Of a stretch of 64,000 bases of DNA, positions 36,149 through 45,409 are shown one piece after another (the first letter of the stretch is position 1; the number at the start of each line of letters is the position of its first letter). The stretch comes from Streptomyces angustmyceticus. Lineage in GTDB: Bacteria > Actinomycetota > Actinomycetes > Streptomycetales > Streptomycetaceae. The stretch lies in NCBI RefSeq assembly GCF_019933235.1, contig NZ_CP082945.1, positions 4,563,501-4,627,500 of the forward strand. The letters run 5' to 3'. Position numbers and translations under genes: made by a program. The notes below the pieces were generated by a model that was given only the letters and a program-made list of their open reading frames with translations, was not told the origin of the DNA and did not search any database.

Positions 36149-37393
36149 CTACAACCGGTGCGCCGCACCGGTCGGCGTCGCCCCGCGAGTGTCCAGCAGC
36201 AGCTGCGCTTTGACCGACAGCCCCTGGAGGTCATACGTGCGGTGGGCCTGGAGAAGGACCGTCAGGTCGGCCGCGGCGGCGGCTTCGTAGAGGGAGTCGG
36301 CGCGGGGGACCGGGCGGTCCAGGACGTTCCACCGGTGGACGTACGGGTCGTGGTAGGTCAGGTGCGCGCCGAGTTCCATCAGGCGGGCGGCGATCTCGCG
36401 GGACGGTGAGCCCGTCTGGTCGGCGATGTCGGGCTTGTAGGTGACGCCCAGGAGCAGGACGCGGGCGCCGCGGGCGGACTTGCCGTGTTCGTTGAGGAGG
36501 GTGGCGCAGCGCTGGATGACGTAGCGCGGCATCCGGTCGTTCACCTCCTGGGCGAGTTCGACCATGCGCAGCGGGTGGCCGAGGGAACGGCCGGTGCCGG
36601 CGTAGTGGTTGGGGTCGACGGGGGCGGCGTGGCCGCCCACGCCGGGGCCGGGGCGGAAGGACTGGAAGCCGAACGGCTTGGTCTCCGCGCAGCGGATGAC
36701 GTCCCACAGGTCGACGCCGATGTCGTGGCAGAAGACCGCCATCTCGTTCATCAGGGCGATGTTGATGTGGCGGTAGTTGGTCTCCAGGAGCTTGGCGGTC
36801 TCCGCCTCGCGGGGGCCGCGGGCGCGGACGACCTTGTCGGTGAGGCGGCCGTAGAAGGCGGCGGCGGCCTCGGTGCAGGCGGGGGTGAGGCCGCCGATGA
36901 CCTTGGGCGTGTTGGCGTAGTGGTGGGTGCGGTTGCCGGGGTCGTGGCGGCCGGGGGAGCAGGCGAGGTGGAAGTCGCGGCCGGCGGTGAGGCCGGAGCC
37001 CTCCTCCAGGAGGGGGCGCAGGAATTCCTCGGTGGTGCCCGGGTAGGCGGTGGATTCGAGGATCACCGTGGTGTGCGGGCGCAGGTGCGCGGCCAGGGTG
37101 CGGGCGGCGTCGGCGAGGGCGGTGAGGTCCGGTGCGCGGTCCTCGCCGAGCGGTGTGGGTGCGCACAGGACCGCGGTGCGGACCCGGCCGAGGGCCGCGG
37201 GGTCGGTGGTGGTGCGGAAGCCGGCCGAGAGCAGGCGGCGGAGTTCGGTGGCGGTCAGCGGCCCGTCGGCGCCGGAGAGGGCGGCGGGCGGGTCGGGGTC
37301 GTAGCCGATGGTGCCGATGCCGGCGGAGGTGGCGGCCTGGGCGAGGGGGAGGCCGAGGTGACCGAGTCCGATGACGGCGAGGTCTGCGGGCAT
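36149..37393 (-). CDS. Nucleotide-sugar dehydrogenase (UDP-glucose/UDP-ManNAc type)
   Basis: NAD-dependent four-electron oxidation of a nucleotide sugar to the uronic acid, as for surface polysaccharides. 414 aa from ATG 37393 (MPADLAVIGLGHLGLPLAQ), with GGAAGGA upstream. N-terminal Rossmann motif GLGHLGLPLA; ESTAYPGTTEEFL; KLLETNYRHINIALMNEMAVFC (catalytic Lys region); and GPGVGGHAAPVDPNHY. The family's catalytic Cys normally lies in GPGxGGxCxxxD; here the sequence is GGHAAPVD, with Ala at that position. C-terminal domain VLLLGVTYKPDIADQTGSP. No glycosyltransferase neighbours. Activity should be tested given the missing Cys. Confidence 0.88.
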   Translation of the reverse strand: MPADLAVIGLGHLGLPLAQAATSAGIGTIGYDPDPPAALSGADGPLTATELRRLLSAGFRTTTDPAALGRVRTAVLCAPTPLGEDRAPDLTALADAARTLAAHLRPHTTVILESTAYPGTTEEFLRPLLEEGSGLTAGRDFHLACSPGRHDPGNRTHHYANTPKVIGGLTPACTEAAAAFYGRLTDKVVRARGPREAETAKLLETNYRHINIALMNEMAVFCHDIGVDLWDVIRCAETKPFGFQSFRPGPGVGGHAAPVDPNHYAGTGRSLGHPLRMVELAQEVNDRMPRYVIQRCATLLNEHGKSARGARVLLLGVTYKPDIADQTGSPSREIAARLMELGAHLTYHDPYVHRWNVLDRPVPRADSLYEAAAAADLTVLLQAHRTYDLQGLSVKAQLLLDTRGATPTGAAHRL

Positions 37394-37617
37394 GCTGCGG
37401 CCGTCCTTCCCGAGCGACTGCGAATGACGTGTGCGCATGACGTGAGCGGCTGGCGATCGTGCATAAGTAGACTAAGCGGATATTTGACCCAGAATAGGGA
37501 TTGATGGATCAAGGCGGCGGGGTGTTGTCGCCATTGAGCGGAGGGTGGATACCGGAACGCGGCGCGGACAGAATCGACGGACGGGGGGTGTGGCCCCGAT
37601 CACAGCGGGAGGCAGCG
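37394..37617. promoter_or_regulatory. Divergent promoter gap between the nucleotide-sugar dehydrogenase and glpD
   Basis: 224 bases. An A/T-rich core at 37459-37510 contains TTGACC at 37482-37487 on the plus strand, a TAGTCT-like box on the minus strand (AGACTA at 37469-37474), and GATGGATCAA. No known glycerol-repressor operator was identified. glpD has GGGAGG at 37609-37614. Confidence 0.4.
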
Positions 37618-40759: not shown

Positions 40760-42910
40760 GTGGGCGACGAGGTCGAGATGGACGGCAAAGGGGGCAGGCT
40801 GCTCGCCGGGCGGTACCGGCTCGCCGATGTTCTCGGCCGGGGCGGCATGGGCACCGTGTGGCGGGCACGCGACGAGGTCCTGGGCCGCACGGTCGCGGTC
40901 AAGGAGCTGCGCTTCCCGGGCGGGGTCGAGGAGGACGAGAAGCGCCGCCTGATCACCCGCACGCTGCGCGAGGCCAAGGCGATCGCCCGGATCCGCAACA
41001 ACGGCGCGGTGACGGTCTATGACGTGGTCGACGAGGACGACCGCCCGTGGATCGTGATGGAGCTGGTCGAGGGCCGCTCGCTGGCCGAGGTCGTCCGCGA
41101 CGACGGCCCGCTCACCCCGCGCCGCGCCGCCGAGGTCGGCCTGGTGGTGCTCGACGTGCTGCGCGCCGCGCACGCCGAGGGCATCCTGCACCGCGATGTG
41201 AAGCCGTCCAACGTCCTGATCTCCGACGACGGCCGGGTCGTGCTGACCGACTTCGGCATCGCCCAGGTCGAGGGCGACCCCTCCGTGACCTCGACCGGCA
41301 TGCTCGTCGGCGCCCCCTCCTACATCTCCCCCGAGCGCGCCCGCGGCCACAAGCCGGGCCCGCCCGCCGACATGTGGTCGCTGGGCGGTCTGCTCTACGC
41401 CTGCGTCGAGGGCGTTCCGCCGTACGACAAGGGCTCCGCGATCGCCACGCTGACCGCGGTGATGACCGAGCCCGTCGAGCCGCCGAAGAGCGCCGGCGAG
41501 CTGGAAGAGGTCATCTACGGCCTGCTGGTGAAGGACCCGGCGGCCCGGCTCGACGACGCCGGTGCGCGGGCGCTGCTGGAGGACGTGCTCCAGGCCCCCG
41601 AGGCGAAGACGCCGGAGCCCCCGATGGACGCGACCCGGGCGATGGCGCTGCCGACGGTGCCCCGGGAGCGGGCGGAGCCGAAGCCCAAGGCCAAGCCGAA
41701 GCAGAAGCCCGCCGCGAAGGCGCGGCCGGCGAAGACCGCCGCCGCGCCGGTGGCGAAGCCGGCGGCCGGGAAGACGGGCACGTCCGAGGCCGGCGCGGCG
41801 GGCGCCGCCGCGTCCGCAAAGGCCGGCACGGGCAAGGCCGGCACGGCCACGGCCGGTGCCGCCTCCGCCGCCGCGGCGAAGACGCCGGCGCGGACCGAGC
41901 GCCCGCAGCAGAAGGCGGCCGCCGCCACGGCCGAGGAGACGACCGGCCCCGGCCGGACGGAGACGGACCGTACGGACACCGCCGCCGCGGACCGCCCCGC
42001 GGGCGCCCGCCCCGGGTTCGACGCCGAGGCCGCCAAGGAGCGGCTGCGCGGCGCCCTGCAGACCGTCCGCGGCGCCGCCGCCGCGATGGCGGCCCGCGCG
42101 GACTCCGGCTCCGGTGACGGCAGCCGCCCGGCGACGCGCGCGTCGGTGACCGACGTCGTCCCGCGCCGGACGCTGATCGTGGTGGCCGTGGTCGTCGTCC
42201 TGGCCGTGCTGGGCACGATCCTGGCCGTCTCCCTGGGCGGTGACGACGCGACGGGCAAGAGCGGCAAGTCGTCCGGCAAGCAGGACAAGGCGACGTCCGC
42301 GAGCCGGGCGAAGCCCTCGGCGGACGCGGCCGACGCGAGCGGGGACGAGGCCAAGGGCCAGGACGCGTCGAGCCCGCAGCCGCCGCCGAACCTCACCCCC
42401 GCCGAGGACACGGGCGGCAAGGACGGCGACGGCGGCAAGGGCGGCAAGGACCTGCCGGGCGGCTTCACCCAGGTCACCAACGGCAGGTTCCACTTCCGTA
42501 TGGCGATGCCCGAGGGCTTCCACCAGACGGGCACGGCGGGGGAGGGCTCCGGCGCCATATACAGCGCGTCGGGCGGCTTCCCGCGCATCCAGATCGACTA
42601 CAACGCCAAGCCCGGCGACGACGCGGCGGCCTCGTGGCGCAGCCTGGAGCCGGCCGTGCGCTCCTCCAGCGAGGACTACCACTTCATCGGCATCAAGCCG
42701 GTGAAGTGGCGGGACTACCCGACCGTCGCCGACTGGTCGTTCACCCGCCGGCAGAGCGGCGAGAAGGTACGGGTCCTCGACCGCGGCTTCCGCGCCGACG
42801 ACGACCACGGCTACGCCATCATGATCACCTGCAAGGCGGACGCCTGGTCGGACAAGCCCTGCCAGCAGATGATCAAGACCGCGTTCAAGACCTTCGCGCT
42901 GAAGGACTGA
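40760..42910 (+). CDS. Transmembrane serine/threonine protein kinase (Hanks type)
   Basis: 716 aa from GTG 40760, with GAGGGG upstream. The cytoplasmic kinase domain covers about residues 18-290: Gly loop LGRGGMGTVWRA (25-36), Lys48 in TVAVKEL, HRDVKPSN with Asp146, DFG Asp164 in TDFGIAQVE, then SYISPERARG. An Ala/Pro/Lys-rich linker (about 300-465) follows, one membrane helix (about 471-493), a charged linker and an extracytoplasmic domain (about 566-716) with a pair of Cys. No PASTA repeats, so the ligand is not muropeptide by the usual route. The next gene has the same architecture but a dead kinase domain. Confidence 0.94.
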   Translation: MGDEVEMDGKGGRLLAGRYRLADVLGRGGMGTVWRARDEVLGRTVAVKELRFPGGVEEDEKRRLITRTLREAKAIARIRNNGAVTVYDVVDEDDRPWIVMELVEGRSLAEVVRDDGPLTPRRAAEVGLVVLDVLRAAHAEGILHRDVKPSNVLISDDGRVVLTDFGIAQVEGDPSVTSTGMLVGAPSYISPERARGHKPGPPADMWSLGGLLYACVEGVPPYDKGSAIATLTAVMTEPVEPPKSAGELEEVIYGLLVKDPAARLDDAGARALLEDVLQAPEAKTPEPPMDATRAMALPTVPRERAEPKPKAKPKQKPAAKARPAKTAAAPVAKPAAGKTGTSEAGAAGAAASAKAGTGKAGTATAGAASAAAAKTPARTERPQQKAAAATAEETTGPGRTETDRTDTAAADRPAGARPGFDAEAAKERLRGALQTVRGAAAAMAARADSGSGDGSRPATRASVTDVVPRRTLIVVAVVVVLAVLGTILAVSLGGDDATGKSGKSSGKQDKATSASRAKPSADAADASGDEAKGQDASSPQPPPNLTPAEDTGGKDGDGGKGGKDLPGGFTQVTNGRFHFRMAMPEGFHQTGTAGEGSGAIYSASGGFPRIQIDYNAKPGDDAAASWRSLEPAVRSSSEDYHFIGIKPVKWRDYPTVADWSFTRRQSGEKVRVLDRGFRADDDHGYAIMITCKADAWSDKPCQQMIKTAFKTFALKD

Positions 42911-43150: not shown

Positions 43151-45409
43151 GTGGACGAGTACGCGGGAAGGGTGCTCGCCGAGCGATACCGCCTGCCGTT
43201 GCGGCCCCTCGGCGACGACGACTTCACCGAGACCCGGGCGTTCGACACCTTCAGCGGCCAGGAGGTGCTGGTCCGTCAGGTGCCGCTGCCGGAGGTCGTC
43301 GAGGCGGAGGTCGTGGGCGCACCGGCGGCGGGTCCCGGCGAACGGGGCACGGGCGGCGGCCGCTTCGGCGCCGCGCGGGTGACGGCCGGGTTGCCGGCGG
43401 GGAAGGCTGACCGCAGTCCCGCCGACCCCACCGTGCGCCGCGCGCTGGACGCCGCGACGACGGCCGCGCAGCTGGCCGACCACCCGCGGCTGGAGCAGGT
43501 CTTCGACGCCTTCGCCCAGGACGGCAGCCTCTGGATCGTCGCGGAGCTGCTCACCGCCCGCCCGCTGTCCGCGCTGCTGGCCGAGCGGCCGCTGTCCCCG
43601 CACCGGGCCGCGGAGATCGCCGCGGACCTGCTGACCGCGCTGCGGGTGCTGCACGCCAACGGCTGGCTGCACCGCAACATCACCGCCCGTACCGTCCTGG
43701 TCTGCGACGACGGCCGGGCCATCCTGACCGGCCTGGCCGCGGGCGCGGCCCAGGAGGCGCTGTGCGGCTACGACTCGCCCGCCGCGGCCGGGGCGCCACG
43801 GGACCGGGCCGCCGCGGACGGACCGGCAGGGGACGGGCCGGAGGCCGACGGGCCCGCCGCCAGGACCTCGCTGACCAAGCCCGTGCCCGGCGACGACGCC
43901 CCGTACGGCCGGCCCTCCGCCGGGCTCGCCGCCGAGCGGGCGCGGCAGGCGCGGCTGACCGCCATCGGCCCGGTCACCGAGCGCTGGGCGCCCGAGCAGG
44001 CCGGACCGGTGCACGAGAACTGGCAGTTGGCGCCGCCGGTCGGCCCGGCCACCGACCTGTGGGCCGTCGGCGCGCTGCTCTACCGCAGCGTGCAGGGGCA
44101 GCCGCCGTTCCCGGAGGACAGCGTCACCGAACTGGCGCAGCTGGTCTGCTCGCAGCCGCCGGCGGTCGCCGAGGAGTGCGGGGCGCTGCGTCCGGTCGTG
44201 GAGTCCCTGCTGCGCCAGGACCCCGCCGACCGCCCGGATTTCGAGGAGCTGAGCGGCTGGCTGCGCTCGCTGATCCGTACGGCGCCGGAGCCGGAGGCCG
44301 GCAGCCTGCTGGTGACGGTGCCGGCGTCGCAGGGCGCCGATCCGGGGCGGCTGCCGATCGTGCGGCGCCGCGGTGAACTCGTCCGCAAGGGGCGCCACAA
44401 GAAGACCCGGGCATCGCGGCGCGCGCGGCCGCAGCCGGCACCGGCCGCCGTCGGGGCGGACCGGGCGCCGGCCGCCGCGGCCGCCCCGCCCGTCCCCGAG
44501 GCGCCGGAGCGGTCCGCGCCGCACGCTCCGGCGCCCCGTCCGCCGCGCCCCCCGAAGCAGCCGGGGCCGCTGGGTCAGCCCGCGCCGGTCCGGGCGGAGC
44601 GGCCCGCCGAGCCGTTCGCCGGGGCCGCCGGGGACGCGGACCGGGACCCGTACGAACAGCAGACGCTGGGCCAGGTCGGGCTGGCCTCCGGGCCGCGCCA
44701 GGGGCACCCGGCGCGCGCCCCGCGCCGCCTCGGCCGGCTGCTGCTCACCGTGGTCCTGCTCCTCCTCGTCGGCGCGGTCGTCTACGCGCTGGCGTTCCTG
44801 CCCGGCGCCGGGCGGGACAAGGGGGCCGGCGGGCGCGGCGCGGAGCGTGCGAGCACCTCGGGCGCGGCGCCCGGCACCGGGCCCACACCGTCCGCCGGCC
44901 CGGAGAAGGGCGACGGCGGGGCCCCCGGCGCGCCGCCGGCGACCCGGCCGACCGGTGCCGCCGACGGCTACGAGGTCCGCCGCGACCCCGGGGGCTTCCA
45001 GATCGCGGTCCGCAAGGACTGGCAGCGGCGCGGGGCGAACGACCGGCGCCAGGTGCGGTACGTCGGCGGGGACTTCGAGCTGGTGGTGGTGCCGGGCCGG
45101 GACACCACGGCGCACTCCGGCACCGACCCCATGGCGTACATGCAGGACAAGGAGCCCGAGCTGGCCCCGTACCGCTCCTCCGGGTGGGCGTCGGCCTCCG
45201 GTCTGCAGCGGATCGACGTCGGGAAGACGGCGATGGCCGAGGGCACCTTCTCCTGGCGGGACGGCAGCGGCCGCGAGGTGTACGTGCGCAACCTCGCGAT
45301 GATCCACAACGGCCGCTACCACCTCGTCCTCGTCATCGGCCCGGACAGCGGCCGGCACGAGGTGGACAAGCTCTACGAGCAGGCGACGAGCAGCTACCGG
45401 CCGCGCTGA
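43151..45409 (+). CDS. Transmembrane pseudokinase (protein-kinase fold lacking catalytic residues)
   Basis: 752 aa from GTG 43151, behind GGGGAGGC. The N-terminal ~380 residues follow the kinase plan but every catalytic element is changed. There is no Gly-rich loop. The VAVK Lys is Arg42 (VLVRQV). HRD is HRN (LHRNITARTVLV, Asn176), and DFG is replaced by TGLA (Gly194). The C-lobe element DLWAVGALLYRSVQGQPPFPE is retained. A long Ala/Pro/Arg linker, one membrane helix (about 530-552) and a ~135-residue extracytoplasmic domain follow, resembling the upstream kinase. Likely a scaffold or regulatory partner of that kinase. Confidence 0.88.
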   Translation: MDEYAGRVLAERYRLPLRPLGDDDFTETRAFDTFSGQEVLVRQVPLPEVVEAEVVGAPAAGPGERGTGGGRFGAARVTAGLPAGKADRSPADPTVRRALDAATTAAQLADHPRLEQVFDAFAQDGSLWIVAELLTARPLSALLAERPLSPHRAAEIAADLLTALRVLHANGWLHRNITARTVLVCDDGRAILTGLAAGAAQEALCGYDSPAAAGAPRDRAAADGPAGDGPEADGPAARTSLTKPVPGDDAPYGRPSAGLAAERARQARLTAIGPVTERWAPEQAGPVHENWQLAPPVGPATDLWAVGALLYRSVQGQPPFPEDSVTELAQLVCSQPPAVAEECGALRPVVESLLRQDPADRPDFEELSGWLRSLIRTAPEPEAGSLLVTVPASQGADPGRLPIVRRRGELVRKGRHKKTRASRRARPQPAPAAVGADRAPAAAAAPPVPEAPERSAPHAPAPRPPRPPKQPGPLGQPAPVRAERPAEPFAGAAGDADRDPYEQQTLGQVGLASGPRQGHPARAPRRLGRLLLTVVLLLLVGAVVYALAFLPGAGRDKGAGGRGAERASTSGAAPGTGPTPSAGPEKGDGGAPGAPPATRPTGAADGYEVRRDPGGFQIAVRKDWQRRGANDRRQVRYVGGDFELVVVPGRDTTAHSGTDPMAYMQDKEPELAPYRSSGWASASGLQRIDVGKTAMAEGTFSWRDGSGREVYVRNLAMIHNGRYHLVLVIGPDSGRHEVDKLYEQATSSYRPR

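Follow-up and report, generated by a model that had tools for sequence, protein, structure and literature searches.

An ActPs2-like pseudokinase encoded directly behind a PkaH-type membrane Ser/Thr kinase in Streptomyces angustmyceticus and its relatives

Bacterial Ser/Thr pseudokinases have been catalogued, and a function is known for few of them (PMC12599244). One catalogued class, ActPs2 (O'Boyle et al. 2025, PMC12599244), is described as having an arginine at the β3 lysine position, HRN for HRD, a lost DFG, two inserts and a C-terminal membrane helix, and in an AlphaFold3 model ATP is held by R42 and R177 of its representative. In Streptomyces coelicolor, the five genes SCO4775-SCO4779 are handled as a cluster of kinases (PMC4416010): they are transcribed separately, SCO4776 constitutively and throughout the life cycle, while pkaH escaped detection by RT-PCR yet is highly expressed in the microarray data cited there. 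When the cluster was deleted, 16.81% of spores were dead and germinating spores became sensitive to vancomycin; sporulation was disturbed by an additional copy of SCO4776, and extra copies of the five 'kinases' caused similar spore defects (PMC4416010). There SCO4776 is counted among the kinases, and neither 'pseudokinase' nor 'lysine' is used in the available text of PMC4416010. A substrate has been reported as well: MreC is phosphorylated by PkaH and PkaI (PMC9739823).

The window analysed here, a stretch of 64,000 nucleotides of Streptomyces angustmyceticus (NZ_CP082945.1, positions 4,563,501 to 4,627,500), carries on its forward strand a 752-residue frame (43151-45409) that was characterized by Pfam, alignment, AlphaFold2, VIA-align and a profile of its core. 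Read in frame and aligned, it has R42 (43274-43276) for the β3 lysine, H174-R175-N176 (43670-43678) for HRD and G194-L195-A196 (43730-43738) for DFG, exactly the three changes that the initial annotation had proposed; in addition, the glycine-rich loop is gone and the Asn of HRDxxxxN is replaced by Thr181. The residue set of an active Ser/Thr kinase (β3 Lys, HRD Asp and DFG Asp) is thus missing from a protein that does keep the kinase plan claimed for it: Pfam Pkinase still matches it at 51.5 bits (cut-off 31.7), AlphaFold2 (with 48 sequences from the window and the related loci as input) models a kinase fold, and VIA-align superposes it on Mycobacterium tuberculosis PknB (1o6y; Z 22.1, rmsd 2.9, 239 residues aligned), which also supplies the top Foldseek matches. 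With the whole protein as query, the Foldseek and VIA lists hold kinase domains only. Block pLDDT is mostly 73-95 as far as the catalytic loop and 41-91 in the C-lobe (residues 258-380; 43922-44290), which is of mixed model confidence. Three stretches are modelled as disordered, namely residues 49-86 between β3 and αC (43295-43408; pLDDT <50), residues 209-257 of the fast-evolving activation-loop insert (43775-43921; pLDDT <50) and residues 275-296. The expected membrane helix was placed by sequence and AlphaFold2 at residues 526-549 (44726-44797), and is followed by a confidently modelled extracytoplasmic domain at residues 605-752 (44963-45406; profile comparison, domain search and AlphaFold2).

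Judged by its sequence, the protein appears to be a member of the class already named ActPs2 (PMC12599244): it shares with that class, as far as the paper describes it, the β3 Lys-to-Arg change (R42; R in 67 of 74 aligned sequences), the HRD Asp-to-Asn change (N in 74/74), the loss of DFG (GLA in 74/74, as LDGLA in 7), an insert between β3 and αC (about 32 residues in ActPs2; residues 49-86 here and 15-64 residues in relatives) and a membrane helix C-terminal to the domain. The activation-loop insert is given as about 250 residues for ActPs2 (PMC12599244), whereas the distance from GLA to ERWAPE is 80 residues in the window protein and 21 in its active neighbour. Both anchors were located in 132 of 135 collected sequences; the distance had a median of 87.5 (range 45-553) in the 122 not counted among the 11 orthologues without an extracytoplasmic domain that are described below, and was 32-52 in 10 of those 11; the two samples share genomes.

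The gene directly upstream (40760-42910, forward strand) encodes a membrane Ser/Thr kinase, for which the β3 Lys, HRDVKPSN and DFG are all present, in keeping with the active neighbour that had been postulated. Its start is the GTG at 40760 or another in-frame codon from 40604, and its 5′ boundary is provisional. The kinase domain (Pfam Pkinase, residues 19-265; 40814-41554), a membrane helix found by hydropathy (42173-42229) and an extracytoplasmic domain modelled by AlphaFold2 at pLDDT 95.5 (42443-42907) follow in that order, and the protein falls in a single clade together with the relatives' HRDVKPSN kinases; it is called PkaH-type below. No sigma-70 or terminator consensus was found between the two genes, a result that tells little in Streptomyces. 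Elsewhere in the window, the segment 35780-36075 contains three consecutive inverted repeats that can form long hairpins (arms of 32, 25 and 32 bases; 94, 100 and 88% complementary) and adjoins an ORF (36149-37438) that looks by eye like a nucleotide-sugar dehydrogenase; no tRNA was found in the 64 kb. In the window genome, four weak or partial Pkinase matches (L023, L024, L026 and L027) may include further pseudokinases.

Relatives link the pair to the published cluster. In many of their loci, two to four active kinases continue downstream of the pseudokinase, and a near-copy of the published PkaI activation-loop peptide (FGVAQVAGATTLTE) was found in a kinase of 18 loci. That kinase lies two genes downstream of the pseudokinase in 17 of the 18 and two genes upstream of it in the other (L107); the order PkaH, pseudokinase, kinase, PkaI peptide holds in 16, with L088 being cut before PkaH and L107 differing. 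The 8.9-kb contig of L107 carries a PkaI-peptide kinase, an HRDVKPDN kinase, the pseudokinase and a cut kinase, an order in which rearrangement or assembly error is possible. The usual order in relatives (PkaH, pseudokinase, kinase, PkaI type, kinase) matches that of SCO4775-SCO4779 as given in PMC4416010, and since gene order and one PkaI peptide agree, the window pair is taken as PkaH (SCO4775) plus SCO4776; gene order and one peptide thus suggest that the pseudokinase corresponds to SCO4776. The window differs from the S. coelicolor cluster in retaining its first two genes only. The cluster has been split in this genome, because the PkaI-like and PkaJ-like kinases (OWN_L009 and OWN_L010) lie at 3.27 and 5.83 Mb, far from the pair at 4.60 Mb. 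Furthermore, no further kinase was found downstream of the pair in any of 13 close relatives (about 6 kb examined); the pair therefore outlasts the cluster.

Conservation of the dead motifs was followed in two samples, the counts from which are kept separate because they share genomes (for example, L049 and L170). The first came from a scan of species genomes that found 414 relatives, the best 80 of which were retained as loci (Streptomyces, Actinacidiphila, Streptantibioticus and one Actinobacteria bacterium record); 73 of them plus the window were aligned, seven truncated or frame-shifted loci being omitted and no row being selected for its motifs. In all 74 sequences N176, T178, T181, G194, L195 and A196 are invariant, and R175 is found in 73; at position 42, 67 sequences have R, six have H, one has a gap and none has K. 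In seven sequences (LDGLA) an Asp stands one residue ahead of GLA, and the insert between β3 and αC measures 15-64 residues between window positions 50 and 95. The place of the αC Glu (101-102) is Ala or Val in 74/74, and the Glu and its salt bridge have probably been lost; this is likely rather than certain because the acidic residue often found just before it (D100 in the window; Glu in the consensus of rows mostly picked for HRN/GLA) could substitute. In the second sample, 52 regions (L148-L199) drawn evenly over the family, the exceptions are HGN in L182 and, in place of GLA, GMA in L189 and GMC in L191. The dead motifs are held constant across relatives rather than being scattered decay. 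The altered residues thus proved conserved, and restored catalytic residues, which would have argued against a pseudokinase, were seen in none of the orthologues read in the 74-sequence alignment, the family sample, the set without an extracytoplasmic domain or the divergent orthologues.

By profile search, the pseudokinase core scores at least 156 bits in 93 of 101 family genomes, with the next scores at about 100 bits; the genomes without it are G101, G117, G127, G104, G119, G129, G135 and G121. In a sample of the class, the core turned up in 39 of 40 same-genus genomes, G514 being the exception, and a profile search of 354 genomes of other families gave no clear orthologue (best 3.1e-31, 110 bits). 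A strict HRN DNA pattern hit 34 of 394 genomes, every one of them among the 40 same-genus genomes, and a 20-base pattern scan was unspecific. Spread to other families of the class was considered and rejected: in 64 other-family genomes matches reached E 1e-22 or better, and the seven that were read (L272-L277 and L280) are all active kinases.

The linkage between the two genes is close to constant. In 72 of the 80 loci, a PkaH-type kinase recognized by similarity score lies on the same strand, by a frame-based measure 52-418 bases upstream of the pseudokinase in 68 and 697-1896 bases upstream in four (L106, L075, L092 and L058, with a split frame in the last three); at the other eight loci, the contig starts inside the pseudokinase or at most 1.5 kb before it. 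In the family sample, an HRDVKPSN kinase that also has VAVKE and DFG is directly upstream in all 48 regions whose neighbourhood is complete; outside these, L195, L197 and L198 are truncated by the end of the contig and L199 is without a pseudokinase. Among 14 further regions around PkaH-like kinases, chosen from genomes that lack the extracytoplasmic domain of the pseudokinase, the pseudokinase is directly downstream of an HRDVKPSN kinase in 11, and the divergent pseudokinases L278 (HRN) and L279 (HLA, with the Asn also lost) each stand behind such a kinase. The remaining three of the 14 have no pseudokinase: L242 and L248, both of genus g5 with an HRDVKPGN kinase, and L245 (G121), where the PkaH-type kinase is followed by an unrelated gene. 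These three are natural test cases for the kinase minus an adjacent pseudokinase. Gene arrangement across these samples supports the pair as a conserved genetic unit.

The extracytoplasmic domains of the two proteins had been described as alike, and profile comparison found them homologous (probability 96.9, E 1.5e-10). With the PkaD, PkaI and PkaJ groups being set by motif and place, however, the pseudokinase domain is also related to PkaD-type (97.7) and PkaI-type (96.9) domains, with PkaJ at a weak 6.3; because it is equally similar to the PkaD- and PkaI-type domains, it is no mark of this pair. The model of the active kinase's domain matched CyanoP (2xb3; TM 0.71, E 4.5e-07) and LpqN (6e5d; TM 0.57) in Foldseek, with MTC28 of M. 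tuberculosis also among the fold matches, and Pfam PsbP matched two of 63 members only (best E 0.076). Predicted structure and profiles thus put the domains in a PsbP/Mog1-like fold, to which that of the pseudokinase is linked by profile comparison only. A literature search turned up no paper that brings together three or more of PsbP, Mog1, LpqN and serine/threonine protein kinases.

The distribution of this domain is narrower than that of the core. A strong match to it (E 1.2e-26 or better) was obtained in 53 of the 101 family genomes, with a weak one in three more. Of the 93 genomes with the core, 40 gave no strong match, and the domain was in none of the 13 of these that were read. Eleven pseudokinases without the domain (L238-L241, L243, L244, L246, L247 and L249-L251, from genera g3, g4, g11 and g14) each stop within a few residues of a single membrane helix; all read HGN, the DFG place is without an Asp in every one, and position 42 is taken by D, E, R or H but in no case by K (L241 and L244 by eye). 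Their partner kinases extend 155-255 residues beyond the helix in the eight of 11 measured. Two other kinases were seen to be short: the active PkaH-type kinase of L278 (G109) itself ends at the membrane helix without an external domain, and the PkaH-type frame of L174 (G112) stops 44 residues past the helix, possibly by truncation or frameshift.

The eleven shorter orthologues bear on two readings in which the active site would still have a part to play. The first, that catalysis of phosphotransfer or another transfer has been kept or gained with unusual residues, could draw on the invariant Asn176, Thr178, Thr181 and GLA (74/74), which are readable as a new active site, and SelO and SidJ are precedents for such catalysis; yet a G114 orthologue has HLA for HRN and GTV for GLA and the eleven have no Asp at the DFG place, and we regard this reading as quite improbable. 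The second is a nucleotide-binding switch, in which R42 and a second active-site Arg would bind ATP without phosphotransfer, as modelled by O'Boyle et al. with AlphaFold3 (PMC12599244). R42 in 67 of 74 sequences suits it; His at this position in six of the 74, the Asp, Glu, Arg or His of the eleven HGN orthologues, and the missing glycine loop and DFG Asp do not, so that a switch of this kind seems unlikely, if somewhat less so than retained catalysis. The variation at residue 42 bears directly on the proposed binding of ATP through that arginine.

A quick tree with long-branch warnings groups 20 pseudokinases in a single clade and 21 PkaH-type kinases in another (SH-aLRT 100 for both), and the branching order within the two is similar by eye; the pseudokinase stem is long, and the tree leaves its sister group unplaced. 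A rooted PkaH tree made under a careful setting had 22 PkaH-type rows plus nine others, the kinases having been picked by sequence expressions that found them in 50 of 68 regions, with rows lacking a kinase omitted. Here the 11 rows from species with a domain-bearing pseudokinase form one clade (100/98) nested inside domain-less lineages. This nesting indicates that the external domain was probably gained once, repeated loss being a less simple account of the same tree. The conserved unit of the pseudokinase is its cytoplasmic part, and the external domain looks like a later addition.

Both branch lengths and dN/dS indicate that the pseudokinase evolves faster than the active kinase. In comparisons of the window with L097, L096 and L030, dN/dS was about 0.15, 0.10 and 0.22, respectively, for the C-lobe, 0.28-0.35 for the core and 0.69-0.88 for the linker, against about 0.1 for the partner kinase domain. 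L031 is an outlier (C-lobe dN 0.183, dS 0.269, about 0.68; partner kinase domain 0.083/0.287). By these ratios the pseudokinase fold is shown to be under purifying selection. A decaying duplicate of a cluster kinase, to which the faster evolution might point, is accordingly a very improbable origin of the gene, given a core present in 93 of 101 genomes and C-lobe ratios well under 1 in three of the four comparisons. A sequencing accident or mere decay was ruled out by the conserved core together with purifying selection.

The dead kinase probably has a genuine function, and the likeliest one is to steer its neighbour in cell-wall and spore-wall building. Our preferred reading, held with moderate confidence, is of a catalytically dead, membrane-tethered, non-catalytic partner of the upstream PkaH-type kinase, as argued by the lost motifs, the purifying selection, the single clade and a near-constant linkage to one kinase that persists even after dispersal of the cluster. 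At the membrane, the pseudokinase domain would bind the kinase domain, or kinase and substrate at once, possibly by way of its C-lobe, and binding would set the place, timing or strength with which cell-wall proteins such as MreC are phosphorylated by the PkaH-type kinase; the external domain, probably added later, might contribute signal input or co-localization. The effect of extra SCO4776 on sporulation counts in favour, since SCO4776, if it is this pseudokinase, should be without kinase activity. A fixed-ratio complex fits poorly, because the S. coelicolor genes are transcribed separately, with SCO4776 constitutive and pkaH undetected by RT-PCR (PMC4416010). Against the partner reading, linkage in most Streptomyces could stem from the cluster as a whole and not from the pair, G121 has a PkaH-type kinase without an adjacent pseudokinase, L107 shows a different order with an HRDVKPDN kinase, and the C-lobe of L031 stands at 0.183/0.269.

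The same observations leave room for a less probable role, in which the protein would serve the entire kinase cluster or the spore-wall complex as scaffold or substrate and not be dedicated to PkaH, the fold and its disordered inserts forming a platform for docking or phosphorylation. At least two active kinases follow in many Streptomyces loci, the extracytoplasmic domain resembles those of PkaD and PkaI as much as that of PkaH, and cluster deletion and extra copies alike lead to spore-wall defects (PMC4416010), as such a platform would have it; but the window's close relatives have no other downstream kinases while the PkaH neighbour is constant, and the inserts are short in the orthologues without the external domain. 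The initial annotation had gone further than a partner and suggested a receptor pair sensing the same or a related external signal. Of this, the pseudokinase, the conserved pair and the homologous domains stood, whereas a domain shared with PkaD and PkaI types and absent from eleven orthologues speaks against a common signal; the idea is possible for Streptomyces and unlikely as the ancestral function.

With the partner reading, a bacterial pseudokinase can be tied to a candidate partner that has a name, to a locus that is conserved and to a phenotype already on record in a tractable laboratory host. The report on the S. coelicolor cluster (PMC4416010) may also be reread, in that one of its five 'kinases' with similar spore defects should itself be devoid of kinase activity.

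HER3 with EGFR and HER2 is a familiar case of a dead and a live kinase domain joined to related extracellular parts, a comparison that holds as a works-like analogy only, the lineage being distant. A bolder form of the partner reading, which we hold to be possible though doubtful, would make this a bacterial counterpart of the receptor kinase/pseudokinase partners: a pair that is nearly obligate and passed on vertically, whose always-dead domain, without need of nucleotide, allosterically controls one spore-wall membrane Ser/Thr kinase and was joined only later by an external domain from the kinase cluster. If so, the 'overbalanced kinase activity' phenotype described for SCO4776 in 2015 would represent titration by a pseudokinase instead of phosphorylation. 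The pseudokinase domain of MviN (ActPs3) and EssB/YukC are likewise membrane-linked bacterial pseudokinases with non-catalytic roles, but they belong to other families and architectures, and no adjacent active kinase is mentioned for them in the available text of PMC12599244. For ActPs2 itself, section 7 of that paper describes neither a neighbouring kinase nor an extracytoplasmic domain, the word 'extracellular' is absent from its main text as available, and, as a further difference, the orthologues collected here differ among themselves in residue 42 and in the HRN motif. Beyond what PMC12599244 and PMC4416010 describe in their available text, the present comparison adds a pseudokinase core found in 93 of 101 family genomes and its apparently constant place behind an HRDVKPSN kinase.
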